Below are positions 38,648-49,235 of a stretch of 64,000 bases of DNA, one piece after another. Origin of the DNA: a virus. The position numbers and the translations under genes are program-made. A model generated the notes under the pieces. It had not been told where the DNA came from and made no database searches. It saw only the letters and a list, made by a program, of their open reading frames with translations. Where the stretch lies: positions 16,134-80,133 of IMG/VR virus record IMGVR_UViG_3300014050_000017, one strand, 5' to 3'. Positions within the stretch are counted from its first letter, which is position 1. The number at the start of each line of letters is the position of its first letter.

Positions 38648-39859
38648 CTAAGCGATAGTAGAGCCTGCGAATGCAGCGCAAGAGAAGGATACAGTTGTTC
38701 TAAGAGGAATCATGGTTTCAGTAAACATAATATGATTTATGTTTAAGCTGGTAATCCAACCAACAAACGACAAAGACTTTGTAGCATCTGGTCCAAGTCT
38801 AAAAGCCAATAAGGATGGTGAGAGGAATCCAATATTTGCTGTAGGCTTCTTTAACAATGTGGTCCATGTTTTGTTTTTATCTTTAGGGTCAGAACCAATA
38901 CCTGTTCCGTTCAACGCTTTAAACAAATACTCTAGGTCAGCCATAGTTCCATAAGCTGCAAGGTCTTTAAGTTTTTGCAGCTTTTTGGTTGCACTAGCCT
39001 CTCCATAACCATACTTATAGTAGTTGTCTATAAAGAACTGTAACTTTTCTGGGTTGTTTGCCCACTCTTTAATACAGGCAAAATCGTTTACTCTATCAAG
39101 GGTAATGGTAAAACTATAAGTCTCTTGACCAGGAAAGGCTCCAGCAACGCTTCTAAATCTATCGGCAGATGATGGCGTTACATCCATGTTTCTTTCAATG
39201 TTTTGTTGAATCGTCTCTGGGTTCCAAAGAAATTGAAAACCAAAAGCATAGTTGTTCTTGCCGCTTCGGTCTCCAACTTTACTTTTCTTTTCAGCATCTT
39301 TTTTTGCCTGCTCTGCAGAAGACGTAGTGATTTCTAAAGACTCACTGTCTACAGTAGACACAAGACCACCATCATCCCAATGCCAAATAACTCCACGACG
39401 TTCTCTGTGGATACTATTTCCTAAAGGATTGTTGTTAACAAATATGCCGTCATCTGTCATGCCGTTTCTTAAAACCTCAACGGGTCTTACAGGCAAGCTC
39501 CAAGCATGAGGAGGTAGATTAAATTCATAGTCGTCTGGCGGAGTATTTCCAGGAAGCTTTGGTTCAGCTGGTCCTTTCTTTTTTCTCTTCTTATTTGTTG
39601 TTCCACCAGTGGTGCCTGTTCCATAGGTTTTTTTAATAGCGTCTACTTCTACTTGAGAATACACAGCGGATTGAGGTGGACGTGCTCCTCTTCCAACGGC
39701 AGGACCTACTGTATAGTTAGGGTTAGCAGCGGTCTGGGCAGCAATGGCTTCTGAAGACTGATATCTAATATATCCTCTACCACCTGGGGCGTTTACAGTA
39801 GGAGGTATTAAAACACTTGCAGTCTTTTTGTTTAGCTCTGACGAACTTTTAGATGGCAT
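38648..39859 (-). CDS. Tail tube initiator-like / hub-adaptor protein
   Basis: 403 residues. A disordered, Lys/Pro/Gly-rich first third is followed by a tube-like domain with FGFQFLWNPETIQQNIERNM and ETYSFTITLDRVNDFACIKEW, which resembles the CIS-tube (Afp7-like) adaptors that connect tube and hub. The final part is LSFVGWITSLNINHIMFTE-like. It sits between tape measure and LysM gene, where such an adaptor belongs. The name is tentative. Confidence 0.6.
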   Translation of the reverse strand: MPSKSSSELNKKTASVLIPPTVNAPGGRGYIRYQSSEAIAAQTAANPNYTVGPAVGRGARPPQSAVYSQVEVDAIKKTYGTGTTGGTTNKKRKKKGPAEPKLPGNTPPDDYEFNLPPHAWSLPVRPVEVLRNGMTDDGIFVNNNPLGNSIHRERRGVIWHWDDGGLVSTVDSESLEITTSSAEQAKKDAEKKSKVGDRSGKNNYAFGFQFLWNPETIQQNIERNMDVTPSSADRFRSVAGAFPGQETYSFTITLDRVNDFACIKEWANNPEKLQFFIDNYYKYGYGEASATKKLQKLKDLAAYGTMADLEYLFKALNGTGIGSDPKDKNKTWTTLLKKPTANIGFLSPSLLAFRLGPDATKSLSFVGWITSLNINHIMFTETMIPLRTTVSFSCAAFAGSTIA

Positions 39860-42126
39860 TAGTTACCTGCTGCTTTCGCTATTGTTTCTTGGCTAGTAAG
39901 AGCCGCCTTGAGAGCAGCTACGTTTGCTTCTGGGTTACCGACACCGCTTAGGTTTACAGTAACTCCTCCGTAGTTATATGTAGTGCTATTAGGCGCCTGT
40001 ACTGGACCAGCACCAATAAAGTCTTTTACAAAACCTGCTAAAAGATTTCTACTAGTATTGTCTCCAGACTTTAAGAAATCTCCCATTGAGAACCTTGCAG
40101 ACTTTTTATCTTCAGATTCTCCACTAGGTCCTCCTTTACCAGGACCTTCACCGTAACCCCCGCCGCTAGAACCAAGCATGCCTTTATAGGTTCCGTCGCC
40201 ACCAGCCTTGCCTGTTCTCCAAGCAGAGTTGTTTACGGCAGTTAGGATTGCTTCTTTGTTACCCTTTTTAATAGCTTCAACAATTGCTGTGTAACCGCGT
40301 TCTTTTGCCTTGTTGCCAGTAAGGGTATCGATAGTTGCATCAAAACCTTGCTCCCAAGATGTATAAGCTTTAACACCTACTGGGTTCATAGACTTAGCGC
40401 CAGTTTTATTAAGTGTAGTGTTTAGTGGATTGAACTCTGCTGTGTTAACCCAGTGTCCTCCCTCAAACCTCATCCAGGTCATCAACGCATCGATGGCCTC
40501 ATTAGTGGGCTTCTTTGCGCCTAGTCTTTTTGCTAATTCTGTTGCCCATGATTTAGCGCTATAGCCACCAGCGGTAACATCCCCGCCGTCTCCTCTAAAT
40601 GGGTAGTTCTTTAATTCATGGTTAGGAACAATACGACCATCAACGTGAGGTACGAATAGCTCTGGTCCGCGCTCGCCGACAACGTATGGGGTTTTATTTT
40701 CTACACTACCGCCGTGCTCACGCTTTAATAGATAGCCTGCCCATGCCGCGTTCATAAATGCGCCAGCACCGCCAGCAACTCCAGAGGATAAGGTTTCTCC
40801 ACCGCTCTTGAAGAATCCAATGGTCTTTAATACTCCAGCAAACCTATCAATAAGGTTAAAGAACCCATTCATGTAACCAAGAATTCGGTTAGCAAATGTA
40901 AATGCCGCAGCCATAGTTGGCGCTACCTGTTGTAAGGTAGTCATAGACTGAGCAGTTCTTTCGCTGATAGAACTTACGGCAGCAGTGGTTGCTCCGTACT
41001 TTTCTCCTAGCTTCTTGAGGTCTCTGCCTGCAAATCGTTGACCACCACTTCGTGCCTTAAGCATAAGGCCATCTTCTATTTGCTTACGAAGAAGGGGGTC
41101 GTTTCCAAAATATTGGTCAAGCATAGATGCAAGAGCATTACCAGGCTGTAAAGATATCTGTACATCTTGTACAGTGATTGGTTCACTGCCCATTTTTTCT
41201 CTGTTTAACTTAGCCCAAATCTCATCAATAATCTGTGGCATAGGCTTAAGGCTGCCGTCCTCACCACGGATACGAATACCGATACCACGTAGCATGTTGA
41301 CGTTACGCGCTTGTTGAATAGAGCCATATGCACGTGCTGAACCTTCAACACCCATACCTGGAGTAATGTTTGACATCTGTGCAGAACCCAAAGCAACGCC
41401 AAGCATGCTAGGACCACCAATACCAAACTGTCGGAAGGTCTCCATCATCTTTGCTGGGTCCATCTTTGAGGTTATGGTTCCCTGCTTTGCAATCTCTTGT
41501 AGAAGAACAGTTGCTTCTTTATACGCTTTATCTTGTGAATTTTTTGTAGCGTCAAGGAACCCAGCAACAGGGTTATTGTTAAATGGCTGAACCTGTCCGT
41601 CAGGTCCGCGACGTCCTAAACCAGCTGCTGTTAAACCAGCCTGCTGTTGGTAAAACACCATACGAGAAGTTGCTAATTGCATTTCAACAGCTTCTTTGGT
41701 TCCTGGCATCATAGCCATGCTGCCAGCTCCTGCAGCAAATAGCGCGGTGCCTCGTGCAAAGGTGCGACCGCTACCGTCTCTATCTATAGGTGTGGCATTT
41801 CCATACTGAACGTTAGATGACCTAACATCAACAGGGTATGGTGGTCTGAAAACTAAATTAGAATCTGGCCCTCCGCCAGGAGGAAATACATTACCTGAAC
41901 CAGTTACAGTAAATACTGGATATGGGGCAACTTGGTTTGAGGCAGGGCCGCCACCATAACCGCCCCCGCTATCTCCAAAGCCTCTTAACTTTCCTAATGC
42001 AGAGGATAGGCTGTTACCCCAACTAGCTGTTGAAGAACCAATGGCTGAGAAGTCACGACGAATATCGGAGGCATAGCTCCGCAACTGTGACAGTAGGTTT
42101 AAAGACTTGATTGGGTCTTCAGCCAT
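39859..42126 (-). CDS. Tape-measure protein with lysozyme-like domain
   Basis: 755 residues. N-terminal Gly-rich linker, long helical region with Ala/Gly segments, a hydrophobic middle (AAAFTFANRILGYMNGFFNLI) and a family patch TPYVVGERGPELFVPH. Residues about 545-650 look like a lytic transglycosylase/lysozyme domain with WMRFEGGHW as the catalytic Glu region, followed by EFNPLNTT. It sets tail length and may cut peptidoglycan at entry. The start overlaps the end of the frameshifted chaperone. Confidence 0.85.
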   Translation of the reverse strand: MAEDPIKSLNLLSQLRSYASDIRRDFSAIGSSTASWGNSLSSALGKLRGFGDSGGGYGGGPASNQVAPYPVFTVTGSGNVFPPGGGPDSNLVFRPPYPVDVRSSNVQYGNATPIDRDGSGRTFARGTALFAAGAGSMAMMPGTKEAVEMQLATSRMVFYQQQAGLTAAGLGRRGPDGQVQPFNNNPVAGFLDATKNSQDKAYKEATVLLQEIAKQGTITSKMDPAKMMETFRQFGIGGPSMLGVALGSAQMSNITPGMGVEGSARAYGSIQQARNVNMLRGIGIRIRGEDGSLKPMPQIIDEIWAKLNREKMGSEPITVQDVQISLQPGNALASMLDQYFGNDPLLRKQIEDGLMLKARSGGQRFAGRDLKKLGEKYGATTAAVSSISERTAQSMTTLQQVAPTMAAAFTFANRILGYMNGFFNLIDRFAGVLKTIGFFKSGGETLSSGVAGGAGAFMNAAWAGYLLKREHGGSVENKTPYVVGERGPELFVPHVDGRIVPNHELKNYPFRGDGGDVTAGGYSAKSWATELAKRLGAKKPTNEAIDALMTWMRFEGGHWVNTAEFNPLNTTLNKTGAKSMNPVGVKAYTSWEQGFDATIDTLTGNKAKERGYTAIVEAIKKGNKEAILTAVNNSAWRTGKAGGDGTYKGMLGSSGGGYGEGPGKGGPSGESEDKKSARFSMGDFLKSGDNTSRNLLAGFVKDFIGAGPVQAPNSTTYNYGGVTVNLSGVGNPEANVAALKAALTSQETIAKAAGN

Positions 42127-43065
42127 TATGTTCCTCTATATCGTTGTGAACGCTCCAACCAGTTCTTTCTTTCACGAACTGAAAGGTTGCGTATATCTGT
42201 TAGGGTCCAACCAGGAAAGGTTCTTGTTAGAACCTCATACTGGTCCAGAAGGTCTTCGTAATCGGTTTCGCTATATACGAAACAAATCTAGCAAGCTAAG
42301 TGGTAGGTCCATTAACTCACCACATGCCTTGCAAGCCTTCTTCACCTCCCCTAGGCGTGGGCCTGGGTTACGTGCGATAATCTCATCGATTATCTTTGTG
42401 CGGTCTGCCATGCCAAGTGCAAGTGCAGTTCCCGCGCCAACAGATGGTGCTCCATTTAGTGAAACAATACAACCAGATAGTAATAGGGTATTAATTTCCG
42501 CTGGCGTCTTATCAACATTTTCCATAAGACGCTTTTGTGTTATTCCGTTAGGAAGTGCAACGACGGCTGTTCCCAGCTTAGTCTTTACCTCCCATTGCCT
42601 ATCTTCAATTGGGTCTTCTAGAGCTTTCACTGGAACATCAGTAGCTAAATCAATAGATGCGGTGTGCTCATCGTTACAGGAGAAGCACCGAACCTTTAGG
42701 TCTACTGTTGGTCCAAATGTTACCTTTCTGATACCCAATAGAATCGCGTCGCGGTCTCCCGCTAGCAAGATATCTAGGTCAGTAGAGGTGGCATTTTTAT
42801 TACCAAGCTTTACTAGACCTCTTTGTAGAAGAGCATTAAGGGCTTTGCCAGAAGAACCAGTCTTAGCAACTGCCTCTTCATCTGAGCCTGTAAGCTCTTT
42901 TACCTCTGCCGTAGTGTGTAGCACACCATCTAGGTCTACAAACCCACCAGGCAGTTGTACCTCAGACTCTGAAGGGGCCAGCGTTTTAATCTGTTTCGCT
43001 GGCTCCTCCATAGCCTGTTCAGCAAACTTAGCTACAAGTTGTGCATCCGTAATAATTTCTGACAT
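42126..43065 (-). CDS. Tail assembly chaperone, +1 frameshift fusion product
   Basis: The gene from 43065 stops at TAG 42271. The +1 frame beyond it is open for 50 codons to TAA 42126-42128, on top of the tape-measure ATG. Joining at TTT-C (42279-42282) gives a 312-residue protein ending with VYSETDYEDLLDQYEVL and a basic RNLSVRERKNWLERSQ tail. The +1 frame has its own stop just upstream, so the shift must fall within GAT TTG TTT CGT ATA; only TTT-C lets the tRNA re-pair fully. Tail genes before the tape measure often encode such fusion chaperones. The site is inferred and unproven. Confidence 0.7.
42271..43065 (-). CDS. Tail assembly chaperone, unshifted form (T4 gp26-like family)
   Basis: 264 residues. 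LPGGFVDLDGVLHTTAEVKELTG and LLGIRKVTFGP match the group related to T4 baseplate protein gp26. Two knuckles, CFSC and CKAC, are well apart and may share a zinc. The position is right for a chaperone: after the tube gene and before the tape measure. The frame ends LDLFRI at a TAG that appears to be bypassed in part by the +1 shift. Confidence 0.78.
   Translation of the reverse strand: MSEIITDAQLVAKFAEQAMEEPAKQIKTLAPSESEVQLPGGFVDLDGVLHTTAEVKELTGSDEEAVAKTGSSGKALNALLQRGLVKLGNKNATSTDLDILLAGDRDAILLGIRKVTFGPTVDLKVRCFSCNDEHTASIDLATDVPVKALEDPIEDRQWEVKTKLGTAVVALPNGITQKRLMENVDKTPAEINTLLLSGCIVSLNGAPSVGAGTALALGMADRTKIIDEIIARNPGPRLGEVKKACKACGELMDLPLSLLDLFRI
42279..42282 (-). promoter_or_regulatory. Putative +1 programmed frameshift site (TTT-C)
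   Basis: On the minus strand the zero-frame codons are TTG TTT CGT ATA TAG. The tRNA on TTT can slip to TTC, after which GTA TAT AGC is read. A rare-looking ATA and a stop codon follow three to six bases on, which would slow the ribosome. No upstream ribosome-like stimulator was confirmed. Confidence 0.55.
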
Positions 43066-43090: not shown

Positions 43091-43747
43091 TTAAACGATT
43101 GCTTTGCGGTCTTTATCCACGAAGGTGACCGATAGACCTTCATGTACAAGCGACATAGATTCAAATAGAATCGCGCCGTCCGCAGCATTTAGGTCTGTAT
43201 AGTTTAGCGTAGTAATCCAAGCGTTGTGAATCTTGAACGCCATACGAGGAATGTTTGCGCCTTCTTCAGTGATGCCCTTTGTGTTTGGGTGGTCCATTAC
43301 ATAAAGGTTGATATCTACACGGAAGCTCTTAGATGTTGAAGTATCTGAGCGCATTGCGATACCTTCACCAGATGCTGCGGCAAATAGACCACGCATCCAT
43401 GTAATAGCTTGGTCATTGCCAAATAGCACGCCACGCTGGAAGGTAACAGGGGTAAAGGTAGTCATACCAGGAATCTGGTGAACGGTAGTGTTATAGCCAC
43501 CTTCACGATACTGGATAGACTGTGTGTTAATGCTTAGACCAGAAATCTGGCTGAAGCCACCAAGCCAACCGTTGGACTTACCTTCTACGAAAGGGGTCTT
43601 CTTGTCGCTCTGGTTAATTTTTGTGCTAAAAAGATTCTCAGGCTTTCCACCCTCAGCTGCTGCTGGTGAAAACTCTGCAACGAACCGAAACGAGCGTAAC
43701 GGGTCTGACGCTATTGTAGAGAATCTATTGATAATGCTTGTTGTCAT
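43091..43747 (-). CDS. Tail tube protein (gp19-like)
   Basis: 218 residues of the T4 gp19 family: DPLRSFRFVAEFSP, the GFSQISGLSI segment, YREGGYNTTVHQIPG, and a strand-rich end with FKIHNAWITTLNYTDL. It stacks as hexamers inside the sheath to make the inner tube. Its place directly after the sheath gene is usual. An insertion after residue 30 (EGGKPENLFSTK) is longer than in T4. Confidence 0.9.
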   Translation of the reverse strand: MTTSIINRFSTIASDPLRSFRFVAEFSPAAAEGGKPENLFSTKINQSDKKTPFVEGKSNGWLGGFSQISGLSINTQSIQYREGGYNTTVHQIPGMTTFTPVTFQRGVLFGNDQAITWMRGLFAAASGEGIAMRSDTSTSKSFRVDINLYVMDHPNTKGITEEGANIPRMAFKIHNAWITTLNYTDLNAADGAILFESMSLVHEGLSVTFVDKDRKAIV

Positions 43748-43761
43748 TTACTGGCTCTCCT

Positions 43762-45264
43762 TTACGCCACAGTAACGGTGGTTCCACCGTCAAACTGACC
43801 AATTTTGATGACCACGAATTCGGCTGGACGCTGTAGAGCAACGCCAACTTCAATGTGTACCTCTCCGTTATCAATAAGGTACTGAGGGTTATTCTCAGCA
43901 TCTACCTTAACGAAGAATGCTTCTGATGGAGTTCCTCCACGAAGACCTCCCTGACTCCAGAACTGGGTCAAGAAAGATGTGCAAGCAGTTTCCAAACGAC
44001 GCCATAGAGCTGGGTCATTAGGCTCAAAGATTGCAAACTCTGTCAAGTCTGTTAGAGACTTGCGTAAGTAAATAAGGCTACGACGTACAGGTACGTACTT
44101 GTCTACATATCCACGCTTTAGTGTTCGTGCACCCATTACAACAAAGCCAGAACCTGGAATAAAACGAATAGCGTTTACAGGAGCTGCTGCGGTGTTAAGG
44201 GCATCAAGGTTTGCGTTTGTAAGTAGGCGTGTTGATACAACACCTGCAAGACGTGCCTGAAGTCCCGCTGGTGCCTTGAATACTCCGCGAGATGTGTCAG
44301 TAGAGGCGATAAGACCAGCAACAGCTGCTCCTGCTCCTACAGTAAGTGTCTTACCTGAGACTGCACCTAGTTCAAGAGTTGGGTCTGAGATAACAAGTGG
44401 TGGATAGTAAACCGCAGCTAAAGAAGATGCAGTGTATGTTCCAGCCAGAGTTAACTGGTTAGCTGGGGTGTCGTTTACGCCATCAACAACAACAAATACG
44501 TCATCGCGTCCTTCAGCATAGCTGATAGCTGCATTAACTACGTTAGCTGATGTCTGACCAGGTAGGTTAAGAACCAAAGATTCTCTAACTGTATCGTGAG
44601 CTGAAAGGCCTGCTGAGTAATCAGTAAGACCTACAGCGTTCCCTGTAGTTCCACCTGATAGAGCTTGGTTAGTTACAACTGCTGGGTTTCTTGTGCTTCC
44701 AGTATTTCCAGAGTTAAGGTCTACAAGAGTGACATAATTAGAAACAGTGTTAACTGTATCTGGTGCATAGCGAGAGTCGGTTGCAGTCATTGAAAGCTGA
44801 GTAAATGTCTCTACGATATCTGCGTCAGTTACTCCGCCGTTATAGATGGTTAGGTCAAAGTATCCAGTTTCAATAGAGTTAGAAACAGAGATGTTTAAAT
44901 CGTTACCCCAACGACCAGCGTTCTTAGCAAGAACCTGTAGTGTTGCAGATGGGCTTACAGCACGGTCGTTCAGAGAGCGTGTAGCTGTCTGTGCGCTTGC
45001 TGCAATGCGGGTTACGTATAGTTGGCTTCCACCATTTGAGAAGAACATATAAACTGCAAGTGGTAGGTCATTGCTTGTGTAAGTATTCCATGAGCCAAAC
45101 TTTGTTACATACTGGCTCCAAGATGTTACCAACGTTGGTGAGCTGATTGGGCCTCGGTCGCTCACGCCGACAAGAGCAGATACAAACTGTGATGCAGCTC
45201 CAGGAAGTGGTTGTACGGGATTTAACGTTTCTTGAACGTATACCCCAGGGCGTTGAAATGCCAT
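43762..45264 (-). CDS. Contractile tail sheath protein
   Basis: 500 residues. MAFQRPGVYVQETLNPVQP and LVGVSDRGPISSPTLVTSW are the characteristic N-terminus, with a C-terminal domain around GYVDKYVPVRRSLIYLRKSL and NGEVHIEVGVALQRPAEFVV. The middle (about 90-300) carries a beta-rich insert. It contracts on attachment and drives the tube. AAGGAG lies just upstream. It shows that the virus is a myovirus. Confidence 0.95.
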   Translation of the reverse strand: MAFQRPGVYVQETLNPVQPLPGAASQFVSALVGVSDRGPISSPTLVTSWSQYVTKFGSWNTYTSNDLPLAVYMFFSNGGSQLYVTRIAASAQTATRSLNDRAVSPSATLQVLAKNAGRWGNDLNISVSNSIETGYFDLTIYNGGVTDADIVETFTQLSMTATDSRYAPDTVNTVSNYVTLVDLNSGNTGSTRNPAVVTNQALSGGTTGNAVGLTDYSAGLSAHDTVRESLVLNLPGQTSANVVNAAISYAEGRDDVFVVVDGVNDTPANQLTLAGTYTASSLAAVYYPPLVISDPTLELGAVSGKTLTVGAGAAVAGLIASTDTSRGVFKAPAGLQARLAGVVSTRLLTNANLDALNTAAAPVNAIRFIPGSGFVVMGARTLKRGYVDKYVPVRRSLIYLRKSLTDLTEFAIFEPNDPALWRRLETACTSFLTQFWSQGGLRGGTPSEAFFVKVDAENNPQYLIDNGEVHIEVGVALQRPAEFVVIKIGQFDGGTTVTVA

Positions 45265-47649: not shown

Positions 47650-48180
47650 CTATTTAATGTACCCAGCAAGAGCTAGGAACTGTGGGTCATTGACCATTTC
47701 GTCGGCCATAACCTGCATACATTCTACAATGATGAGGGTATATCTTTCAGCAACAATGCCTGCCTGTTGAATAAAATAAGGGCGATAAACCTGGCCCTTC
47801 CATAGGATACGACCACGAGCTTGAAGGTCTGGGTTGCCAATGACTCCTGGTACAACGCGCTCAACATCTTCAGCGTTTAGGGTTAGGTGTAAAGAGTCAG
47901 CCCCATAGTAACCGCGCTGACTGTTCTTAATGCTTCCTTGTTTAATTACTGCACGAATAACAGGTAGGTCAAACGGGCCGCGCCAAATACGTCCACCTGT
48001 AGATGTAGATAGGTCTTGGCCAACATCGTAGATAGGGTCAAGCACAGTTGCTTCTGGGTCCCATACAAACCACTTAGCAGTAGTTCCTACAGGTCTCTTG
48101 AGGTCTTTATCAATACCGTCTAGGACCTTGTTGGTTTCAAAGTCTGCGTCAAAACGACCGCCTGGTGCGTGAGCTCTCAT
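47650..48180 (-). CDS. Head-closure/neck-like protein, 176 aa
   Basis: Beta-rich with RGRILWKGQVYRPYFIQQ and a C-terminal helix (VECMQVMADEMVNDP). Head-closure proteins of contractile phages have this size and gene position, between the adhesins and the tail terminator. There is no firm family match. The start overlaps the glycosyltransferase stop. Confidence 0.5.
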   Translation of the reverse strand: MRAHAPGGRFDADFETNKVLDGIDKDLKRPVGTTAKWFVWDPEATVLDPIYDVGQDLSTSTGGRIWRGPFDLPVIRAVIKQGSIKNSQRGYYGADSLHLTLNAEDVERVVPGVIGNPDLQARGRILWKGQVYRPYFIQQAGIVAERYTLIIVECMQVMADEMVNDPQFLALAGYIK

Positions 48181-49235
48181 TCTACTCCCTGTTTGTAGAA
48201 TACAAGGTTACCCACTATTCGTTCGTCTGTAGGGCTCAACTCCGCCGCAGTAGTGCCATACTCAAGTGCTTTTTCTTTCTCTCCAATCATAAACGCACAT
48301 ACGGCTGCTAGGTCGTATGGCTGAGAGCCCCAGGCAAAAGCCTCATTTAAATAGTCCATACTCTTGTGTTTAATATTGATTGCCTTCTTAGCCCACATGT
48401 AACACTCTTCAATGCGTCCTTGGTCGTAGTGGTATTGGGCAAGCTCAACGTAAGCCTCTCGTTTACCAGGCTCTTCTTGAATAGCTAGCTTCCACCACTT
48501 AAGTTTTTCCGATTCTTCTGTAGAACATTTTGCTATGTACCGCATGGATGCGGCTCGTTCAGCTTTCCATATTGCCTTAGGTAAAGACAAATGACGTTTA
48601 AATTCAACTAACGCTTCTTCATATTTGCCATGGAAGAACAGCTCACGAGCGTAGTAGTATGCGTTGCGGTCATTGTGTGGGTCTTCCTCTACAGATAATT
48701 TAAGTAGCGGTAGATACTGTCCACGAGACTTGGTGTCATCAGCCTTGTGCCATAGTCCAAGCTGTGTCCAATATTCTTTTTCTACAAGTCGGTCGGTATA
48801 TAAACATTCGTGGACAGGGTGCATCCATCTATACCCATATCGAGCATGAATCTTGTCTCCACCAAAAGTAAGACCTGGGGTACCATCTGGATTAAAGTTC
48901 CATGTGTAGTTGTAGCGTATACGTGTTGTACCAGCTGGAACTTTCTCCATCTCTTCACGCCAACCAGGAGCAAGCATCTCATCCATATCTAGGGAAATGC
49001 AGTAGTCAATATCATCTGGTAATAAAGCTAGGGCTGCGTTGCGGGCGTCATCGAAGCGCCATGGACGTATGCTAATTTTGTGGCACACAATTCCTAGGGC
49101 TTCAGCCTTACTCACAGTCTCATCAACAGAGCCTGTGTCAGCAATCATTAGGTAGTCAGCTTCTTTAGCTGATTCATACCAGCGTTCTACAAACTGTTCC
49201 TCATTTAATGCGATGGTGTATACGGCTATTTTCAT
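48177..49235 (-). CDS. Family 2 glycosyltransferase with TPR-like C-terminus
   Basis: 352 residues. The GT-A start is clear: IAVYTIALNEEQFVERW, MIADTGSVDETV, then CISLDMDEML with the metal-binding Asp-x-Asp. After about residue 185 the chain becomes paired helices (KYEEALVEFKRHL, YDQGRIEECYMWAKKAINI, GEKEKALEYGTTAAEL), like TPR repeats. It adds a sugar to an unknown acceptor; virion fibre proteins or modified DNA are candidates. The start ATG has no ribosome site but a -10 box six bases before it, so it may be leaderless. Confidence 0.88.
   Translation of the reverse strand: MKIAVYTIALNEEQFVERWYESAKEADYLMIADTGSVDETVSKAEALGIVCHKISIRPWRFDDARNAALALLPDDIDYCISLDMDEMLAPGWREEMEKVPAGTTRIRYNYTWNFNPDGTPGLTFGGDKIHARYGYRWMHPVHECLYTDRLVEKEYWTQLGLWHKADDTKSRGQYLPLLKLSVEEDPHNDRNAYYYARELFFHGKYEEALVEFKRHLSLPKAIWKAERAASMRYIAKCSTEESEKLKWWKLAIQEEPGKREAYVELAQYHYDQGRIEECYMWAKKAINIKHKSMDYLNEAFAWGSQPYDLAAVCAFMIGEKEKALEYGTTAAELSPTDERIVGNLVFYKQGVE

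Follow-up and report, generated by a model that had tools for sequence, protein, structure and literature searches.

The window analysed here – a stretch of 64,000 nucleotides from the virus record IMGVR_UViG_3300014050_000017, itself 80,133 bases long – carries on its minus strand a run of genes in the order tail sheath, tail tube, G gene, +1 tail, tape measure and baseplate genes. The presence of a tail sheath protein gene (43762–45264; phrog_23, E 2e-49) identifies the virus as a contractile-tail phage. The tail tube protein (43091–43747) belongs to the T4 gp19 family (PF06841, E 9e-23), whereas the tape-measure protein (39859–42126) is recognised from its position, its length and weak phrog tape-measure matches, the best at E 4e-5. 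The G gene and its tail lie between these two, in the classic position of a G/GT pair of tail assembly chaperones; the tape-measure protein would be the client of such a pair and the tube protein the presumed partner of its T domain. The same placement is found in Streptomyces phages and in phages LIS04 and SP-15. Elsewhere, the record encodes a DNA polymerase, helicases, a primase, RecA/UvsX, a ribonucleotide reductase and three tRNAs, and a β-1,4-glycosyltransferase-like gene (48177–49235; phrog_13126, E 3e-109) is found among the structural genes, upstream of those for the tail.

In frame 0, the G gene (42271–43065) encodes 264 residues with two CxxC pairs, and its end reads ...CTTAGC TTG CTA GAT TTG TTT CGT ATA TAG CGAAACC... 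(42300–42265). The initial annotation had claimed that the +1 frame stays open for about 50 codons past the TAG (42271–42273), that it ends on the tape-measure ATG, that a stop of its own upstream confines any shift to five codons and that TTT-C is the only clean slip site among them. Direct reading bears this out, including the coordinates and the LDLF–VYSE junction. A +1-frame TAG at 42290–42288 limits the earliest shift, leaving the frame open from position −14 relative to the frame-0 stop, that is from 42287, as far as a TAA at 42128–42126 that has one base in common with the ATG (TAATG). Within this permitted interval GAT, TTG, CGT and ATA are unable to re-pair at +1, whereas TTT (42282–42280) followed by C (42279) can, which leaves TTT-C (42279–42282) as the sole site for re-pairing in the P site, with CGT (42279–42277) as the A-site codon directly 3′ of TTT and the frame-0 stop three codons past it. 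The post-slip product, here called the T domain, has 50 codons (42129–42278), reads VYSETDYEDLLDQYEVLTRTFPGWTLTDIRNLSVRERKNWLERSQRYRGT and contains no ATG, GTG or TTG before its codon 12. Its coding end encloses AGAGGA (42132–42137), the likely Shine–Dalgarno sequence of the tape-measure gene; many relatives have AGGAGG there, so that AGG-AGG serves both as two Arg codons and as a Shine–Dalgarno sequence.

Identity of the two coding segments

The protein read in frame 0 matches PF12322, the family of T4 gp26 and gp51, at E 5e-8 and 33.3 bits, above the curated cut-off of 24.5, as well as phrog_150, annotated as baseplate hub. Its AlphaFold2 model (G and T were modelled separately) has a pLDDT of 89 and finds T4-like baseplate hub assembly proteins among BFVD folds at E 1e-21; the best PDB fold is the HK97 tail assembly chaperone, at a non-significant E of 0.74. 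The T domain is modelled as three helices (pLDDT 87). PDB sequence searches with G and T gave no match, and a PDB fold search with the T model gave nothing useful.

The tail behaves as coding sequence in the +1 frame, judging from the distribution of its variation: identity by +1-frame codon position is.63/.74/.54, most changes thus falling at third positions. Its core motif is GW(S/T)..(D/E)I..L(S/T).RER..W. The window's own tail has no Pfam hit; among 57 relatives, 21 match the P2 GpE family (PF06528, Phage_P2_GpE) at E up to 1, the best at 2.5e-4. Profile alignments join the tails of different groups (E 1.8e-5 and 4.5e-5) and also join +1 tails with tails found in the −1 frame (A8 against A10, E 2e-10), with shuffled controls scoring clearly lower, which suggests that one and the same T domain is reached by shifts of differing direction.

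With a PF12322 protein in the first frame and a P2 GpE-like tail in the second, the reading that +1 slippage makes this locus a G/GT pair of tail chaperones is supported. The word 'chaperone' in the initial annotation needs a qualification, in that the first frame by itself is annotated as T4 'baseplate hub'; the chaperone role of G is argued instead from synteny, from the conserved G/GT layout, from the P2-GpE-like tail and from the listing of both T4 gp26 and gp51 as hub assembly chaperones, gp51 being required for assembly and absent from the particle (PMC3004832). The 'baseplate hub' annotation of the family could in this way become a testable chaperone role. As for the 'typical basic chaperone tail' also described there, a conserved T domain is indeed present, while its basic charge is partly a by-product of the overlap with the tape-measure ribosome-binding site (AGAGGA here, AGG AGG in relatives).

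Breadth of the arrangement and selection on the slip site

A first search returned 23 relatives, and all 22 that cover the site keep TTG-TTT-CGY-NNN-TAR together with the same tail in +1. Deeper searches extended the set to 309 loci, reduced to 148 non-redundant ones at 85% identity of G; the tail lies in +1 in 137 of these and in −1 in eight, the remaining three being cut by the contig end. In the overlap of their two frames, the +1 relatives have TTT_C (96/137) or TTT_T (38/137), together 134/137, the TTT_T count including, by script, Lysobacter locus L119, whose tail we regard as spurious and which lends no support. TTT-TGG, seen in relatives of a huge phage, makes up most of the TTT_T class, and the last three +1 relatives have TTT_AAT or CCC_AGT. 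The A-site codon is CGN in 74 of the 96 TTT_C cases and CAN or CTN in the remainder (~23%).

The arrangement extends to cultured phages and bacterial chromosomes. In the Streptomyces phages BRock, GiJojo and pSt2308 (~35% identity), G ends in CTG-TTT-CGC-GAA-CTC-stop and the +1 tail is homologous; LuckySocke has TTT-CAG at the slip site. The arrangement recurs, with TTT-CGC, TTT-CTC or TTT-CTG, in chromosomes of Streptomyces, Saccharothrix and Nonomuraea, and the +1 set further includes Bacillus SP-15 (TTT-CAC), Streptococcus SagM-GXN1 (TTT-CGT) and Listeria LIS04 (TTT-TTT-AGT). In Xanthomonas XacN1 and one huge phage, the tail is in −1. Within its own phage group +1 is the rule; the description of this case as unusual holds for phages overall, in which −1 dominates (2368 backward against 350 forward shifts in the PRFect set; PMC10885494), and not for its own chaperone family, in which +1 is the norm.

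The −1 loci are L125, L126, L240, L242, L160, L162, L209 and L219, and XacN1 (L126) has T_TTT_TTT, a −1 slip site, close to the end of G. A subgroup (L147, L151, L152 and L157) has TTA-TTT-AAT-CCC-AGT or TTC-AAT-CCC-AGT in place of TTT-C, which suggests +1 slippage on CCC_A instead. L321 and L305 are natural variants in which TTT has the stop as its next codon (TTT-TAA) or is followed by TGG-TAG.

Codon choice at the site points to selection. In the window's group, TTT is present in 49/49 members, CGN follows in 44/49 and TTG makes up 41 of the 46 Leu codons that precede it, while neighbouring conserved codons are free to vary, mostly with a synonymous entropy of 1.2 to 2.1 bits over the eight codons upstream. 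In high-GC actinophages, TTT occupies all 28 of 28 sites, although it makes up ~14% of Phe codons (199/1409; an approximate figure, as the actinophage ORFs were picked mechanically). By chance, an in-frame TTT-C within the last ten codons would be expected in 0.4% of genes in the window's group and 0.9% in the high-GC actinophages; it is found in 48/51 and 26/28, respectively, figures that, like the other conservation figures, are descriptive and carry no exact probabilities because related sequences are not independent. The main safeguard for these statistics is the spread across groups at ≤35% identity. Elsewhere in-frame TTT_CGN is depleted, with two occurrences against 12.3 expected in the window's genes and three against 13.3 expected in G genes. 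The frame-0 stop follows TTT within one to five codons in 106 of 134 relatives; its usual distance is 3–5 codons, and it is not usually in the A site. Taken as sequence evidence, these comparisons show that the site and the tail are conserved far beyond chance, with selection acting on the two frames as well as on the slip site and the T domain.

Proposed mechanism and competing explanations

Very probably, two tail assembly chaperones are made here from one start, by +1 slippage at TTT-C into the T domain; we infer the occurrence and the rate of the slippage as well as the chaperone roles. The majority of ribosomes would read G to the TAG and release the 264-residue protein. In a fraction of them, the P-site tRNA-Phe (anticodon GAA) would exchange its pairing with UUU for one with UUC while CGU occupies the A site, and translation would continue through the T domain to yield a G-T protein of 312 residues joined as ...LDLF-VYSE.... 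By analogy with lambda gpG/gpGT and P2 gpE/E′, G would coat the tape-measure protein, T would bring in the tail tube subunit and a low shift rate would set the G:GT ratio.

A search for an RNA stimulator common to the relatives found none (RNAalifold, 0 pairs; mean z −1.45); the window RNA by itself folds well (z −4.5), in a fold not common to its relatives. Inspection by eye revealed no Shine–Dalgarno-like stimulator just 5′ of TTT. Nor does the phage's own codon usage support an explanation by a rare A-site codon, since the window's genes use CGT, at 18.1 per 1000, more than any other Arg codon. The conserved TTG before TTT may have a role like that of the conserved UCC of influenza.

The same two frames could be joined by other routes, namely a −2 shift, a +1 shift at another codon or slippage by RNA polymerase, although this is improbable. 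A −2 shift reaches the same target frame and is the one used by phage Mu gpGT (cited in PMC3498833), and other codons find some favour in the TTT-TTT-AGT of LIS04 and in the three relatives that depend on TTT_AAT or CCC_AGT. At TTG-TTT-CGT, however, a −2 shift allows no re-pairing, none of the neighbouring codons can re-pair at +1, three consecutive T are too few for RNA polymerase to slip on and the codon that stays invariant is TTT.

Public annotation leans towards a different idea, that no frameshift takes place and the +1 frame is instead a small gene in its own right, translated from its own start codon or by ribosomes that re-initiate once they have passed the stop of G. Small genes are annotated within the tail in the records of BRock, GiJojo, LuckySocke and SP-15, the tail is left unannotated in pSt2308 and the records of the other Streptomyces phages show two separate hypothetical or baseplate genes; the fusion protein is absent from the public records of PF12322 frameshift phages. 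In five GenBank phages (L025, L026, L027, L028 and L123), the chaperone is split in two genes or its tail missed, and the annotated start codons truncate part of the T domain. Some ATG, GTG or TTG does exist in the +1 frame of 25/49 relatives, but the other 24, the window included, have none before tail codon 12. Against a separate gene there is also the slip codon, which stays TTT even where TTC is strongly preferred, and the T domain, which adjoins G in all register variants, and HSTV-2 is annotated as joined; we consider this reading very unlikely. There is a negligible chance that the break stems from an error of sequencing or assembly, such as the indels possible in single metagenome assemblies, or from gene decay (no tool result favoured this here): hundreds of independent contigs, and cultured phages as well, are broken at this very codon, and the T motif is in frame 0 at none of the 309 loci.

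An error joining the frames and a relative with one continuous frame were two of the outcomes that the initial annotation had named as fatal to it; the former fails on this recurrence of the break, and the latter was sought and found at 0/309 loci. Its central claim, that a +1 shift is programmed at TTT-C where a tail chaperone would be encoded, is upheld by the comparative evidence, by which the arrangement is real and the predicted +1 frameshift well supported.

Relation to known frameshifts and to phage T4

G/GT frameshifting is established, mostly as a −1 event. Lambda gpG/gpGT and P2 gpE/E′ resemble the present locus in gene order, in a pair of products that begin at one start codon and in a C-terminal extension by frameshift; some T domains of the window's relatives match the GpE family of P2. 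They differ in their −1 shift and in a G protein that is unrelated or undetectably related.

The closest precedent for the site is archaeal. A TTT-CGC +1 tail-chaperone site has been proposed for HF1-like archaeal myoviruses (HF2 and Serpecor1; PMC7230728, and the Atkins review, PMC5009743), and we confirmed it in the sequences of HSTV-2 and HF2. These haloviruses likewise have a contractile tail and two frames between tube and tape measure, with a +1 shift at TTT-CGC near the first stop; their hosts are archaeal, and the lack of a PF12322 match in the first protein of HSTV-2 makes a separate origin of their site probable. Influenza PA-X (UCC_UUU_CGU; +1 P-site slippage shown by peptide sequencing, PMC3498833) and plant amalgaviruses (UUU_CGN; proposed, PMC5052127) have the identical P- and A-site sequence and the same direction, on eukaryotic ribosomes and in unrelated genes, the conserved E-site codon being UCC in influenza and TTG in the window's group. 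Phages of bacteria and viruses of archaea and of eukaryotes would share the UUU_CGN solution. Listeria phage PSA and Bacillus phage SPP1 also have programmed +1 shifts in structural genes (PMC5009743, PMC3498833), but in capsid and tail shaft/tube proteins rather than chaperones, and in PSA on a proline codon.

The literature searched, which included few subscription papers, contained no description of the frameshift in PF12322 phages, of its breadth, of the change of direction or of a link to T4. In that literature, tail-chaperone use of the TTT-C site has so far been proposed only in viruses of salt-loving archaea; new here are the PF12322 family, the breadth in bacterial phages, the change in shift direction and the T4 gp26/gp51 lead. 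We know of few natural bacterial +1 sites outside the release-factor-2 gene. The present family offers more than 100 natural variants of one site, in which TTT is followed in the A site by CGN, CAN, CTN, TGG, TTC or TAA, and so makes it possible to test what governs slippage in the P site.

The T4 connection is a lead, not a result. PF12322 contains both T4 gp26 and gp51, as full-length paralogues (L323: 2803–3429 and 3480–4229), encoded by two separate, divergently transcribed genes with no frameshift. Of these two hub chaperones, only gp51 continues beyond the full PF12322 domain, by ~48 C-terminal residues that resemble the frameshift T domain; they are placed where the frameshift tails join and contain the T-like motif Y.L..I..M.P.ER. 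Against T profiles, its C-terminus scores weakly (E 0.0045 to 0.046) and above nearly all column shuffles. The composition of gp51 suggests that T4 may carry G and GT as two genes. More broadly, and as a tentative proposal that we hold to be somewhat less probable than its converse, PF12322 might be a general G-type tail chaperone of contractile phages, with T added by +1 shifts (UUU_C, UUU_U), by −1 shifts or, in T4, by duplication, gp26 being G and gp51 being G and T in frame. To our knowledge, the absence of G/GT frameshifting in T4 has long been noted; a split by duplication would, if true, account for it, and would give a mechanism to gp26 and gp51, hub chaperones of which little is understood.
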